Below, in pieces: positions 27,186 to 32,626 of a stretch of 32,626 bases of DNA (position 1 is its first letter; the number at the start of each line of letters is the position of its first letter). The DNA is taken from positions 1-32,626 of the forward strand of contig MNYK01000125.1 in the NCBI GenBank assembly GCA_001873115.1, written 5' to 3'. Source of the stretch: Desulfobacterales bacterium CG2_30_60_27. GTDB taxonomy: Bacteria; Desulfobacterota; Desulfobulbia; Desulfobulbales; CG2-30-60-27. The notes beneath the pieces are model-generated. The model was not told where the DNA came from. It did no database searches and saw nothing but the letters and a program-made list of their open reading frames with translations. The position numbers were made by a program, and so were the translations under genes.

Positions 27186-28394
27186 ATGGATACGCCGCAA
27201 ATTGTCCTGGCCCAGCGGGTGCAACTGATCAAACCTTCCCCCACCCTGGCGGTGAATGCCAAGGCCAAGGCGCTCAAGGCCTCTGGGGCCGATGTGCTTA
27301 ACTTCAGCGTTGGCGAGCCGGATTTCGATACGCCGGCGCATGTGCGGGCGGCAGGCAAGCAGGCCATTGACGACGGCCATACCCGCTACACGGCCGTACC
27401 TGGCATCATCGAGCTGCGTGAGGGTATCTGCCGCCGTTTTGCCGAGGATCACGGCTGGAAGTTTACGCCAGATCAGATCCAGGTTTCTTGCGGCGGCAAG
27501 CATGGCCTCTACAATATGGCCCAAGTCCTGTTCAATCCGGGCGACGAGGTGCTGATCCCAACACCCTATTGGGTGTCCTATCCGCCTATCGTCCTGCTGG
27601 CCGGCGCCACGCCGGTGCTGTTTCCCCTGGATGAAAAGGATGATTTTGACCTCAACCCGGACATCCTAAGGCAGCACATCACGCCGCGCACCCGCGCCAT
27701 CATCCTGAACAGCCCGTCGAACCCCACGGGCGCCGTGTTTTCCAGGAAGGCCTTGGAGGCCGTCGGCGCCATGGCTTTGGAGCGGGGCTGGATCATCATC
27801 AGTGACGACATTTACGACACCATCACCTTTGGCAACGCCCCCCTGCCGCACATCCTTGACGTGGACCCGCGCCTGCAGGCCCAAACCCTGGTCTTAAACG
27901 GCGTGTCGAAGTCCTTTGCCATGACCGGCTGGCGCATCGGTTACACCGCCGGGCCCAAGCACATCATCGCCGCCATGAACAAGGTGCAGAGTCAGTCCAC
28001 CTCCAACCCGTCGTCCGTGGCCCAGTATGCCGCCCTGGCGGCCGTTACCGGTCCCCAGGATTTTCCGGGCGTCATGCGCCAGGCCTTCCTGCCCCGGCGG
28101 GCATATATGGTGAATACCCTGCGGGCCATGCCGGGCGTTACCTGTGTACAGCCGGCGGGCGCCTTTTACGTATTTCCCAACATGGCCGCCTATTTTGGCC
28201 GCTCCTTTGGCGGAAAACCGATCACCGGTTCCGTGGAACTGGCCGAGTTTCTCCTGGAGGAGGCCCTGGTGGCGGTGGTGCCGGGCGCAGCCTTTGGCGC
28301 CGACCAGTTCATCCGTTTTTCCTTTGCCGCGGCCATGGACGTGATCGAGGAGGGCCTGCGCCGGGTGGGTTCTGCCCTGGGCAAGTTGACCTGA
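27186..28394 (+). CDS. Class I pyridoxal-phosphate aminotransferase (aspartate type)
   Basis: The 402-residue enzyme is a fold-type I aminotransferase of the prokaryotic aspartate aminotransferase subgroup. The PLP-binding lysine is K242 in NGVSKSFAMTGWRIGY. VGEPDFDTP, TPYWVSYP, LNSPSNPTGAVFS and the closing arginine region IRFSFAAAMDVIEEGL fit the subgroup. Likely it moves amino groups between aspartate/glutamate and oxoacids; some members also accept prephenate or act in other pathways. GAGGAAG precedes the ATG. The gene ends 48 bases before a palindromic repeat. Confidence 0.93.
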   Translation: MDTPQIVLAQRVQLIKPSPTLAVNAKAKALKASGADVLNFSVGEPDFDTPAHVRAAGKQAIDDGHTRYTAVPGIIELREGICRRFAEDHGWKFTPDQIQVSCGGKHGLYNMAQVLFNPGDEVLIPTPYWVSYPPIVLLAGATPVLFPLDEKDDFDLNPDILRQHITPRTRAIILNSPSNPTGAVFSRKALEAVGAMALERGWIIISDDIYDTITFGNAPLPHILDVDPRLQAQTLVLNGVSKSFAMTGWRIGYTAGPKHIIAAMNKVQSQSTSNPSSVAQYAALAAVTGPQDFPGVMRQAFLPRRAYMVNTLRAMPGVTCVQPAGAFYVFPNMAAYFGRSFGGKPITGSVELAEFLLEEALVAVVPGAAFGADQFIRFSFAAAMDVIEEGLRRVGSALGKLT

Positions 28395-28442
28395 GCTCTT
28401 CTGTCTTCTGTCTTTCTTCTTCCGCCTTTGCGTAAAAAATGG

Positions 28443-28573
28443 GGTAACTATCCAGCGGAACCGAAACCCGGGTTAGTTCCCGGACGCCTCGGAGGCGGGC
28501 AGGACGCCCGCCGAGCATGAGCGCAAGGCATGGCCAGCCCGGGAACGCTTAAATGTCGACACAAGCTGGATAG
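28443..28573. repeat. Nested palindromic dispersed repeat, copy A
   Basis: CTATCCAGC (28448-28456) pairs with GCTGGATAG (28565-28573), GTTCCCGG (28476-28483) with CCGGGAAC (28539-28546), and a central GGCGGGC/GCCCGCC hairpin lies near 28494-28512. The first 43 bases (28443-28485) match 32549-32591 at 39 positions, so the element occurs at least twice in the window. It resembles a MITE or REP-type element; no transposase is present. Confidence 0.75.
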
Positions 28574-28634
28574 ATACAAAATGGGCGCGATTATTTTTTT
28601 GACTTTCCTGGTTACGTTGTGCAATACTGGAAAT

Positions 28635-28792
28635 GTAAGGAAGAAAGCGGTGATTCAAAAATTGAGTAAGAACTTCCCGTTCTCCTGTAAAAAGGAACAC
28701 TCAATTTCACCGGATTTATTCTTCCCTACAGAGAAGGCCCAGCACAGAGGCCTTCCAAAGAAGCCCTTACCCAGCCAGGTAAGGGCTTTCTT
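28635..28792 (+). ncRNA. Candidate structured small RNA
   Basis: TTGACT (28599-28604) and AATACT (28623-28628), 18 bases apart, would start a transcript near 28635. Stem 1 is AAATTGAGT (28659-28667) with ACTCAATTT (28699-28707), extended by GTG/CAC across a bulge. Stem 2 is GAAGGCC (28733-28739) with GGCCTTC (28749-28755). Stem 3 is the terminator 28762-28792. It could be a free small RNA or a leader upstream of the PHP gene. I recognise no known RNA family. Confidence 0.45.
28762..28792 (+). terminator. Strong intrinsic terminator before the PHP-phosphatase gene
   Basis: AGCCCTTACC (28762-28771) and GGTAAGGGCT (28778-28787) form a perfect 10-bp stem with a 6-base loop, followed by TTCTT. 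It ends about 130 bases before the next start codon. Confidence 0.75.
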
Positions 28793-28920
28793 GTATGGGG
28801 CGGCCGGCATGGCATACGCCACCAGGAGCATTAGACTGGCATCGCATGCTTGGTAACGTGGGAGGATGGCGGAGGTAACCACGCCTTTTGCCCGACGTGG
28901 CATGGCAAAGGAGGGGCAGG

Positions 28921-29685
28921 GTGCGGATCGACACCACGGTTGACGGGCACGTTCACACCAAGTTATGCAAGCACGCCACCGGCGAGATGGAAGAGTATGT
29001 ACAGGCTGCCGTGGCCAAAGGGCTGACCGGTATCATCTTCCTTGAACATCTGGAATCGGGCATCAGTTATTTCGAATCCACCTGGCTCTCCGAGGCGGAG
29101 TTCGACCTCTATTTCGCGGAGGGCCTGCGCCTGCGGCAGAAGTATGCAGGGCAGATTACCGTCGGCCTTGGGGTGGAGGTGGGCTATAACCCGCATAAGG
29201 TGGCGGCAATTGCCGACTTTCTGGCCCGCCATGTCTGGGACCGGGTGGGACTGTCCTGCCATTTTCTGGAGACCAGCGGCGACCACCTCAATCTGGTAAG
29301 CCGGCGCCAAAGCAACTGGGGGCCACTCGGCGAGCTGGGGATGGACAAGGTGGTGGCCATCTATTTTCAGCGGCTCAGGCAGGCGGTTGAAGAGCTGCCG
29401 GGTACCGTGGTCTGCCATCTCGACGCCGTGCTGCGTCATCACCCCGACATCCGTTTCACTGCCGAGAATCGTCAACTGGCCTTGGCCGTGCTGAACGCCA
29501 TGGCAGAGCGTGGCTTGGCCCTGGAGGTCAACACCTCGGGTTTCCCGCACCGGGGCGAGCCCTATCCAGACAGTTTTTTCAGAGACGAGGCGGTGCGGCG
29601 CGGCATCCAGTTGGTGCCCGGCTCCGACGCCCATCAGCCCCGCGATGTAGGTCGCTACTTTGAGCGGCTGGCCACGTGGCCCTAA
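28921..29685 (+). CDS. hisK: PHP-domain phosphatase, probable histidinol-phosphatase
   Basis: The 254-residue protein has the PHP metal-dependent phosphoesterase pattern. Motif I is [14 protein letters not shown], with H10 and H12. Further metal ligands are in [29 protein letters not shown] and the closing [15 protein letters not shown]. The size and pattern match HisK-type histidinol phosphatases, the second-last step of histidine synthesis, but other PHP phosphatases look similar. The start is GTG 28921 with AAGGAGG six bases upstream. Confidence 0.8.
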
Positions 29686-29984: not shown

Positions 29985-31076
29985 ATGCGTTTTCACTGCC
30001 CACAATGCGGCTTTACCAAGGAAATTCCCGACCGGTTTAAAAACCGCGCCCTGCAATGCCCGCGCTGCCAGCATAGCCAGGCCGTTGTCGGCAAACTGGC
30101 CGTCTCCCGCGCCTTCCCGGCCGAAACCATCCTCTTCTACTGCGATACCTGCGGCTTCCGCAAGACCATTCCCTTCAAATTCTCCGGCGCCACGGCCAAG
30201 TGTCCGCAATGTCGGACGCCCGTCTTGATCACCGACTACCGCGATTATTGGAACCTCACACGCAGCCCGTTCCCGGCCGGCAATCACCCCGACTTCTTTT
30301 TCGAGGGCTACGACCATGTGGAGGCCTTGGAACGGCTTTTTTACATCGTTGAAGACGGGGACATGCACTTCGGCCTGCTCACCGGCGACATCGGTTGCGG
30401 CAAGACCATCACCCGCCTGGTTTTCAAGAAAAAGCTGCTTGGCCAGAGTTATGAACTGGTAGACTTGGAAAACGCCAACCTGAGCTTTCCCTTTCTGCTG
30501 CTCGAGGTCTTGCAGTGCCTGGGGGCCGCCGATAGTTTCACCGAACGTCCCATCGACCCCAGCGCCCTTTATTATCTGCTGCGGGAATTCAAGCAGGTGC
30601 TTAAGAACCGCATCCATGCCAAGGGCAAGCGGCTGCTCATCATGCTGGACGAGGCCCAGCAGCTTGACCGGCAGACCCTGATCGAGCTGAAGAATCTCAC
30701 CAATATCACCTTGGACGGGCAATGCCCGGTCACCATCATCCTGATCGGCCAGCCCGACCTGCGGGATCTGGTGAAAACCCTGCCCCAGGTGGACCAGCGC
30801 ATCAGCCTCCGTTATCACCTGCCGCCCTTGCGACCCCAAGAGATCGGCGACTATGTGCGCCATCGGCTGGCCGTGGCCGGCAACCCGCGGCCGGACATCT
30901 TCACCTCGGACGCCGCCGATTCGCTGCACCGCATCACCGGCGGGGTGCCCCGGGAGATCAACCGGGTCTGTAAACTGGCCCTGGCCCGCGCCTGTACCCT
31001 GAAAAGCCGGATGGTGGACGGGGCCATGCTCGAATCCATTGCCCTCGACCTGCGCCGCCAGGACGGGCTGGCCTAG
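29985..31076 (+). CDS. ExeA / XrtA-associated-type ATPase with two N-terminal zinc ribbons
   Basis: The 363-residue protein has an AAA ATPase core like ExeA/GspA and the XrtA-linked EPS ATPases. The core opens with YWNLTRSPFPAG and FFEGYDHVEALERLFY. Walker A is GDIGCGKT (134-141), Walker B LLIMLDEAQ (near 217-225), sensor region ILIGQPDLR, then GGVPREINRVCKLAL. Unlike the usual form, it has about 80 extra N-terminal residues with four CxxC pairs (C5/C8, C25/C28, C53/C56, C73/C76), forming two zinc ribbons of the same layout, apparently a duplication. AGGAA lies about six bases before the ATG. The export lipoprotein gene starts nine bases after it, so a role in polysaccharide synthesis or export is likely. 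Confidence 0.85.
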   Translation: MRFHCPQCGFTKEIPDRFKNRALQCPRCQHSQAVVGKLAVSRAFPAETILFYCDTCGFRKTIPFKFSGATAKCPQCRTPVLITDYRDYWNLTRSPFPAGNHPDFFFEGYDHVEALERLFYIVEDGDMHFGLLTGDIGCGKTITRLVFKKKLLGQSYELVDLENANLSFPFLLLEVLQCLGAADSFTERPIDPSALYYLLREFKQVLKNRIHAKGKRLLIMLDEAQQLDRQTLIELKNLTNITLDGQCPVTIILIGQPDLRDLVKTLPQVDQRISLRYHLPPLRPQEIGDYVRHRLAVAGNPRPDIFTSDAADSLHRITGGVPREINRVCKLALARACTLKSRMVDGAMLESIALDLRRQDGLA

Positions 31077-31085
31077 ACCTGCACC

Positions 31086-32540
31086 ATGCCGAAAACCCAT
31101 GGCCTGCCAGAGATCGTCCTGCCCCGCTTTCGCCGGCGCTATCTTGTGGCCATGCTTCTCTGTTTCTGGATGGCCGGCTGCGCGCCGCGGCCATCCGGTC
31201 CCCTGGCAACCGTCAACTCCGACGAACCAGAGTCGCAAACCCGGTTCATCGGTTACGCGCCGGGGGTAGCCCACTCCGCCACGGTGACCGAGAAAACGCC
31301 AGCCATGCCGGCCCAGCCGGAGCCACCCGTCGCTACCCCCCAGGCGGCCATCCTGGAGACACCGGCCGCATCGGTCGCAACCAAGCCGGCAGCCGTTCCC
31401 CGCACGCCCACCGGTGCGGCGGCCGTGCCGACCGAGGTCATGTCAGCCCACGTCCCGCAGGCCGCTGCCCCGCAGGCCATCGCCGCGCCGCCGGCCATGC
31501 CGGTCGAGGCAAAGCCGAACACGGCCCAGCCCGAGCTGGCTATCGCCGCGATCATCACGGCCAGCGAAAAGGCGCTGGCCGAAGTCGAGAAACCGGCAGC
31601 GCCCACGGTTGCCACCCCTGGCCCGCAAAACCCGCGCGGCCCGGATGAGATCATCGCCTCCTACGAAACGCGGCAGCAGACGGCCACGCCCACGCTCTCC
31701 GATTATGTACTGTCACCCGGCGATGTGATCGAGATCTCGGTGTGGGGCGAGGACATGACCCGGGAGATTGTCGTGCCGCCGGACGGTAAGATCTCGTATT
31801 TTCTCATCGGTCGGATCAAGGTGGCGGACCGTACCATGGAAGAGATCCGGGGCGAGATCGAGGCACGCCTCGTCGAATACATCCGGAGCCCCAAGGTCAT
31901 CGTACTCGGCAAGAGTTTCATCGGCAACGCGGCCAGCGTCCTGGGGGCCGTTAATCAGCCGGGGCAGAAGACTATCAACCCGGGCGACCGGGTCACCGAC
32001 CTGCTGGCCAAGGCCGGCGGCTTCATGTACGTTTTGGGCGACAATACCGCCGAGGATTCCAGACTGATGGCCGACCTGCCTGACGCCTACCTGTCACGCC
32101 ATGGCAAAAACCAGGACATCGACATGGCCAGGTTGCTGGACCAGGGCGACATGAGCCAGAACGTCTTGCTGCAGAAAGGTGATTTCCTGTTCATTCCTTA
32201 CGCGAAACGGGCCAACGTCTATGCCCTGGGCGAAGTGGCCAACCCCACGGTCATCCATTTCCGGGAGAACCTGACCCTGCTGGACGCCATTGCCCATGCC
32301 GGCGGTCTCAACAAGACCACGTATAAAGACGAGGTCTGCATCGTGCGGGGCAGCCTGAAAAATCCGGAAGTCATCCGGCTGCATTATCCCTCCATCCTGA
32401 AAGGCATTGAACCAAACCGTCTGCTCATGGCCGGCGACATCGTTTACGTGCCCGCCACCATGGTGACCAGCATCGAACGTCTTTCCCGCCAGATCATCCC
32501 CTTTCTGGACGCCCTGGTGCGCAGGAAGGAGGCGATGTAG
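31086..32540 (+). CDS. Wza-like outer-membrane polysaccharide export lipoprotein
   Basis: The 484-residue protein carries a lipoprotein signal (hydrophobic YLVAMLLCFW, lipobox MAGC, lipidation at C32). A long low-complexity linker rich in P, A, V and T follows (about 50-190). The Poly_export domain starts near 204 (DYVLSPGDVIEISVWGEDM), followed by two SLBB domains (near 280, VLGAVNQPGQKTINPGDRV; near 378, VYALGEVANPTVIHFRENL). It should form the export channel for an exopolysaccharide, as Wza or the XrtA-system EpsE-like proteins do. The proline-alanine linker is unusually long. No good Shine-Dalgarno precedes ATG 31086; coupling to the ATPase gene is plausible. Partner genes would lie beyond the window. 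Confidence 0.9.
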   Translation: MPKTHGLPEIVLPRFRRRYLVAMLLCFWMAGCAPRPSGPLATVNSDEPESQTRFIGYAPGVAHSATVTEKTPAMPAQPEPPVATPQAAILETPAASVATKPAAVPRTPTGAAAVPTEVMSAHVPQAAAPQAIAAPPAMPVEAKPNTAQPELAIAAIITASEKALAEVEKPAAPTVATPGPQNPRGPDEIIASYETRQQTATPTLSDYVLSPGDVIEISVWGEDMTREIVVPPDGKISYFLIGRIKVADRTMEEIRGEIEARLVEYIRSPKVIVLGKSFIGNAASVLGAVNQPGQKTINPGDRVTDLLAKAGGFMYVLGDNTAEDSRLMADLPDAYLSRHGKNQDIDMARLLDQGDMSQNVLLQKGDFLFIPYAKRANVYALGEVANPTVIHFRENLTLLDAIAHAGGLNKTTYKDEVCIVRGSLKNPEVIRLHYPSILKGIEPNRLLMAGDIVYVPATMVTSIERLSRQIIPFLDALVRRKEAM

Positions 32541-32548
32541 AGCTGAAA

Positions 32549-32626
32549 GGTAACTATCCAGTGGAACCGCAACCCAGGTGAGTTCCCGGACTGGCAATGC
32601 TTTTCGCGGGTTCGTCCGCGACCTCA
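32549..32626. repeat. Nested palindromic dispersed repeat, copy B (cut by window end)
   Basis: Bases 32549-32591 match copy A (28443-28485) at 39 of 43 positions, starting GGTAACTATCCAG and ending AGTTCCCGGAC. The following part differs from copy A, but again forms a GC hairpin, TCGCGG/CCGCGA, near 32604-32621. The right half is outside the window. Confidence 0.7.

Follow-up and report, generated by a model that had tools for sequence, protein, structure and literature searches.

Very probably, the palindromic element in the window is an IS66-family (ISBst12-like) MITE whose core is an independent, nested structured repeat. The window is the whole stretch of DNA that was analysed, 32,626 nucleotides. 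It makes up the whole of contig C137 in the assembly of Desulfobacterales bacterium CG2_30_60_27, which contains 157 contigs and 2.5 Mb. Copies of the element (63 to 223 bp) encode no transposase of their own, are in many cases flanked by an 8-bp duplication and have GTAA-starting ends that match those of an IS66-family IS, the autonomous partner. We assign the element to IS66 because this partner, a single-ORF IS66-family element resident in the same genome, shares the 13-bp ends of the MITE and also carries an 8-bp duplication.

Structure of the window copies

The first-pass annotation had described three nested inverted repeats in a region of about 130 bp at 28443-28573. All three arm pairs were located: the outer pair GTAACTATCCAGC/GCTGGATAGATAC (12/13 matched), the middle pair GTTCCCGG/CCGGGAAC and the inner pair GGCGGGC/GCCCGCC (28494-28500/28506-28512). 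The element stands as described, with its ends corrected to 28444-28577 (134 bp), and an exact 8-bp repeat flanks it on both sides (Table 1). The family has 13-bp ends, GTAACTATCCAGC/GCTGGATAGTTAC, and a typical length of 195 bp. The folding energy of the element strand is -60.9 kcal/mol, compared with -43.5 ± 3.6 kcal/mol for shuffled sequences (z -4.9; 0/200 shuffles). No intrinsic-terminator-like site was found at 28300-28900.

Table 1. Coordinates of the features of the two MITE copies in the window
Feature	Position	Strand	Basis
Left target-site duplication AAAATGGG, 8 bp	28436..28443	.	sequence; exact match to 28578-28585
MITE copy, 134 bp, internally deleted version of the 195-bp element	28444..28577	+	copy comparison
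Left terminal inverted repeat GTAACTATCCAGC, same as the ends of the IS66-family IS at G000:C93:8804-10532	28444..28456	+	
GTTCCCGG, 5' side of the base of outer stem P1, nested structured core	28476..28483	+	
CGGAC, 61-bp deletion junction (one of two CGGAC direct repeats in the long form)	28480..28484	+	long-copy comparison
P4 hairpin GGCGGGC-AGGAC-GCCCGCC, loop type A(N)GGAX	28494..28512	+	
CCGGGAAC, 3' side of the base of outer stem P1	28539..28546	+	
Right terminal inverted repeat GCTGGATAGATAC, one mismatch to GCTGGATAGTTAC	28565..28577	+	
Right target-site duplication AAAATGGG, 8 bp	28578..28585	.	sequence
GCTGAAAG, presumed left target duplication of the second copy; partner beyond the contig	32542..32549	.	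sequence
Second MITE copy, long (CCTCA) form, first 77 bases	32550..32626	+	cut at contig end

The reported recurrence of the first 43 bases is exact in its count: 28443-28485 and 32549-32591 differ at four positions. The second copy stops at 32626 because the window is the entire contig. The centres of the two copies do differ, as had been noted, because 61 bp that lie between CGGAC repeats have gone from the first copy, as alignment A2 shows. This deletion takes out inner P1, P3 and P3b, while the P1 base and the P4 hairpin stay. The 63-bp class is joined at CAACCCGGG/CAGCCCGGG repeats, likewise between direct repeats. That class was considered as the ancestral form and rejected; the variants at the CAACCCGGG/CAGCCCGGG junction are better explained by deletion from the long form.

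Both window copies lie just after stop codons (49 bp and 9 bp), as the annotation had it. Across the genome, a crude frame test of insertion sites gave no clear avoidance of open frames. A zinc-ribbon/AAA ATPase gene and, directly after it, a Poly_export/SLBB polysaccharide export gene lie in 29985-32540, immediately before the second copy. The left flank of the second copy, GCTGAAAG (L237, C137 end), reappears as the right flank at the end of contig C113 (L215), so the window may continue into C113. The join is ambiguous because C149 and C54 also have the GCTGAAAG 8-mer as left flank.

Copy number and target duplications

A mobile family should have further copies in the genome, and a genome-wide search returned about 100-135 of them, not two. 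The 12-bp tip GTAACTATCCAG (at most 1 mismatch) has 235 matches in the genome (111 + 124), compared with 2 for the reversed control. Longer end queries retrieved the right end 101 times and the left end 108 times, and these matches were grouped into 139 places. The stretches around these places were extracted and then checked for complete elements. They contained 62 complete elements and about 68 tips whose contig breaks off no more than 275 bp further on, which gives the estimate of roughly 100-135 copies. The complete elements measured 63 bp (12 copies), 65-99 bp (4), 134 bp (2), 145 bp, 170-175 bp (6), 187-198 bp (36) and 223 bp. An additional 130-bp copy (L003) was missed by stricter tip matching. 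Pairwise identity among the long copies was 83-99.5%. The plasmid and phage collections contained no match to the element, and a literature search with the tip sequence returned unrelated papers only.

Target-site duplications, which the annotation had proposed as a check, were sought in the 55 copies with both flanks. An exact 8-bp duplication was present in 20/55 copies and one with a single mismatch in 9/55. Random re-pairing of the flanks, used as the control, gave about 0.5 exact and about 0.2 with one mismatch (at most one mismatch, about 0.6), compared with the 29/55 seen. Duplications of 5, 6, 7 or 10-12 bp were found in none of the 55. A good duplication was absent from 26/55 copies. 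Many of these sit at contig joins with repeated flanks, such as GAAAAAGG in L155, L173, L208 and L215. The repeated flanks suggest assembly chimeras, with real recombination as an alternative.

The 223-bp copy (L132:451-673, on contig C17 of the window's genome, G000) has two right ends and inverted-complementary flanks and is likely an assembly fold-back. A complete copy of the MITE also occurs in a contig labelled Fibrobacteres bacterium CG2_30_45_31 (L114, MNYL01000054.1). About 100 bp of its flank matches contig ends in the window's genome at 99% identity. That contig is probably mis-binned and hints at the same sample.

The IS66 partner

The window's genome contains a single IS66-family (PF03050) match. 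It belongs to an intact IS of 1729 bp (L080:1343-3071, G000:C93:8804-10532) whose 13-bp ends are identical to those of the MITE. The IS carries an 8-bp duplication, GAATATTT, and encodes one long transposase ORF of 483 aa, which fits the single-ORF layout (no tnpA/tnpB) of the ISBst12 group. The protein matches PF03050 at 6e-47 (Pfam) and NF033517 at 4e-86, above the cut-off (NCBIfam). The IS breaks a short ORF (MKLSQFDKTMVAMAFAEAGE..., within L080:1120-3200), apparently the gene for a small membrane protein.

ISDge4, of the ISBst12 group, was caught transposing in Deinococcus; it has ends GTAACTGCTCAGCA / GTGACTACTCAGCA, an 8-bp direct repeat and one ORF of 449 aa (PMC12898284). The element resembles ISDge4 and its group in the GTAAC..CAGC ends, the 8-bp target duplication and the single ORF of the resident IS. 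Unlike members of that group, the MITE has no gene, and it is like the resident IS over the outermost 13-17 bp alone. Past these bases the ends differ, so the direct parent may be an IS66 other than the C93 IS. In another Deltaproteobacterium an IS66 relic lies immediately within the end GTAACTATCCAGCTTGTGCCG, which is close to the MITE right end GTAACTATCCAGCTTGTGTCG.

The element also resembles the prokaryotic MITEs reviewed in PMC10969869. It is short and non-coding, has terminal inverted repeats and target duplications, reaches a high copy number and has size variants from internal deletion. It differs from them in its interior, an independent, covarying structured repeat. IS66 is not mentioned in that review, and our literature searches found no described IS66 MITE.

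Tips of the MITE kind occur in 22/58 relatives, where most of them belong to other short elements. Across the order there are related short elements, each of them with several tips. The window's genome contains a second short-element family with ends GTAACTGTYCAGCAGCACCACATCTG and 29 tips (C1:21078, C45:5689, C147:25180 and others), which also appears to be of IS66 type.

The suggestion of a mobile non-autonomous element therefore agrees with what was found. The family has about 100 copies with terminal inverted repeats and 8-bp duplications, and it shares its ends with an autonomous IS66 partner. Judging from the shared ends, the MITE is probably mobilised in trans by an IS66 transposase. Such an enzyme, that of the C93 copy or one no longer assembled, would recognise GTAACTATCCAG ends in trans and move the 63-223 bp element, leaving 8-bp target duplications. 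The copy at 28444 is one insertion of a form that lost 61 bp between short direct repeats.

Other explanations of the element were weighed against the IS66 assignment. Being short, palindromic, in high copy number and near stop codons, it could pass for a REP/BIME element that owes its mobility to a RAYT (Y1) transposase; the annotation had proposed looking for such a gene. REP elements lack a terminal-repeat and target-duplication signature. This element, however, has terminal inverted repeats and 8-bp target duplications, and its ends recur on an IS66 in the genome. Y1 transposition is not known to leave a target duplication of this kind. Ends and duplication point to IS66, and a REP/RAYT origin is very improbable. 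We give the lowest probability to a composite or accessory region, with the polysaccharide genes, delimited by the two window copies. These copies do lie on either side of 4 kb, but the first has its own full 8-bp duplication and the left flank of the second is a different one, so each inserted independently; there are also about 100 or more copies across the genome. No integrase was found between them in a limited Pfam check of three ORFs (28530-29634).

The nested core

The core of the MITE is a structured repeat in its own right, about 132 bp long. When a long copy was compared with relatives, only positions of about 57-141 matched. They matched a dispersed repeat without MITE ends in two genomes, G005 (a single-contig genome) and G027. 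In both, a conserved 85-bp core lies within outer arms of very different sequence that still pair almost perfectly. The core folds into an outer stem P1, a GG/GA internal loop, P2, P3 with P3b, and P4, a three-helix arrangement.

Compensatory changes in the arms, another check that had been proposed, were abundant: 279 double-changed cells, compared with 82 ± 7 after shuffling and no more than 80 in the slid controls. In alignment A4 (31 sequences from three genomes), 97.2% of cells are paired, and both sides have changed in 32/50 pairs; one of the aligned sequences served as the source of its structure, and it is cleaner than alignment A5. Alignment A5 (46 distinct sequences, with more distant members added) has 592 double-changed cells, compared with 168 ± 11 shuffled; its sequences were fitted to the structure of the model, and a few of them are the same elements read in antisense. 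Copies from the window's own genome (A1) gave weak covariation when taken alone, with 4 double-changed pairs, a number reached by 45/500 shuffles, and their left and right arm alleles are mixed. The decisive signal thus comes from the relatives, not from the own-genome copies. The fold is kept by compensatory changes, so the folded single strand matters. Of the earlier idea of a structured RNA under pairing constraint, the constraint holds for the core, with strong covariation, and RNA as the active form stays putative.

Among 258 genomes of the class, a covariance model located the core in 13, which all belong to a single order. Copies are numerous across several genera of family f5, and G023, G075 and G243 have one each. 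The same search found none in the same-genus genome G001. The single copy in G023 is also preceded by the GTAACTATCCAGC end. The window copy has no Rfam match at E up to 5, and the cores of the relatives have none at E up to 1. The exact pattern of the core was absent from IMG/VR, and a literature search with the P4 hairpin sequence returned nothing relevant.

The sequences show that in the window's lineage this independent palindromic repeat sits inside the MITE and was amplified along with it. We infer that the MITE captured the core, and likewise the order of these events.

In relatives, the core also occurs in frame within genes for a PepN-type aminopeptidase (L334:1501-1633), HypF (L370:2028-2160), a CbiA-type synthase (L327:1178-1291) and a transglutaminase-domain protein (L300:1478-1610). 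It lies there in both orientations, and between conserved domains where domains are recognised. When HypF is aligned with a solved structure, the query jumps from 398 to 477 and the chain from 371 to 376. The PepN insert is of the same kind.

Possible function of the core

GGA is present in the P3b loop of 34/38 copies and in the P4 loop of 34/39. In both loops an A(N)GGAX motif sits immediately on a stem closed by C-G, and this is retained while the stems change. A(N)GGAX on a stem is the high-affinity CsrA/RsmE site (PMC4005645, PMC7652899). Genes for csrA were found in 12/14 genomes searched, including the window's; the other two are less than 80% complete. The most specific role we can propose, possible but doubtful, is that both loops act as CsrA/RsmA-type binding sites once the sense strand is transcribed. 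Core orientation relative to neighbouring genes was unbiased (20:14 upstream, 18:17 downstream, from crude gene calls made for the analysis), which argues against a simple role in cis within mRNA. A cis-acting mRNA element was rejected on this absence of bias.

Two explanations concern the core only. It may be a DNA-level palindromic mobile element without RNA function, akin to the Rickettsia palindromic elements, and would then move as folded single-stranded DNA or a cruciform through some recombinase; we put this at slightly below an even chance. The core is dispersed in relatives in both orientations, its copies are intergenic as well as in frame in genes, and its outer arms are wholly different between copies yet paired. 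It resembles the Rickettsia elements (PMC10969869) as a dispersed palindrome of about 130 bp that lies in frame in some enzyme genes, a placement in unrelated genes that was found in relatives only. The likeness is one of form and placement; the core belongs to other bacteria and, unlike those elements, rides a transposase-dependent MITE in the window's genome. Against a purely DNA-level element, the loop GGAs are retained while the stems compensate, and no target duplication or recombinase was identified for the core. G-U pairs also exceed A-C mismatches (38:15), which points to one strand, weakly, because the copies share ancestry.

The core may instead be a structured regulatory RNA that spread by hitch-hiking, either as a CsrA/RsmA-type sponge or as a site embedded in mRNAs, which we regard as possible but doubtful. 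Its covariation, the A(N)GGAX loops in both hairpins and the csrA genes of its carriers are consistent with this. Such loops directly on a stem recall the CsrA/RsmA-binding RNAs CsrB and RsmZ. Unlike those RNAs, the core has just two such hairpins per copy and many dispersed copies, no Rfam family of CsrA-binding sRNAs matches it, and its transcription is putative. The unbiased orientation also counts against a regulatory RNA, no promoter, terminator or transcript of the core is known, and the loop motif was noticed after the fact.

Implications

The assignment to IS66 links an abundant short repeat to one specific transposase family. The 63-bp class appears to be a natural minimal substrate, with about 28 + 35 bp of ends. 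The element terminates a large share of the contigs of this assembly. Within this MITE, moreover, sits a second structured repeat that is dispersed independently of it. More speculatively, and with a low probability, the core could be an undescribed RNA family of the order (probably Desulfobulbales) with two CsrA/RsmA hairpins. It would have spread as a palindrome, in some genera in frame into genes, and been captured by the IS66 MITE in the window's lineage, and its roughly 100 copies there would act as genome-wide CsrA decoys or regulatory sites. Whether mobile palindromes distribute the sites of post-transcriptional regulators becomes directly testable, because the core combines strong covariation and the lack of an Rfam entry with in-frame enzyme copies in relatives and CsrA-like loops.
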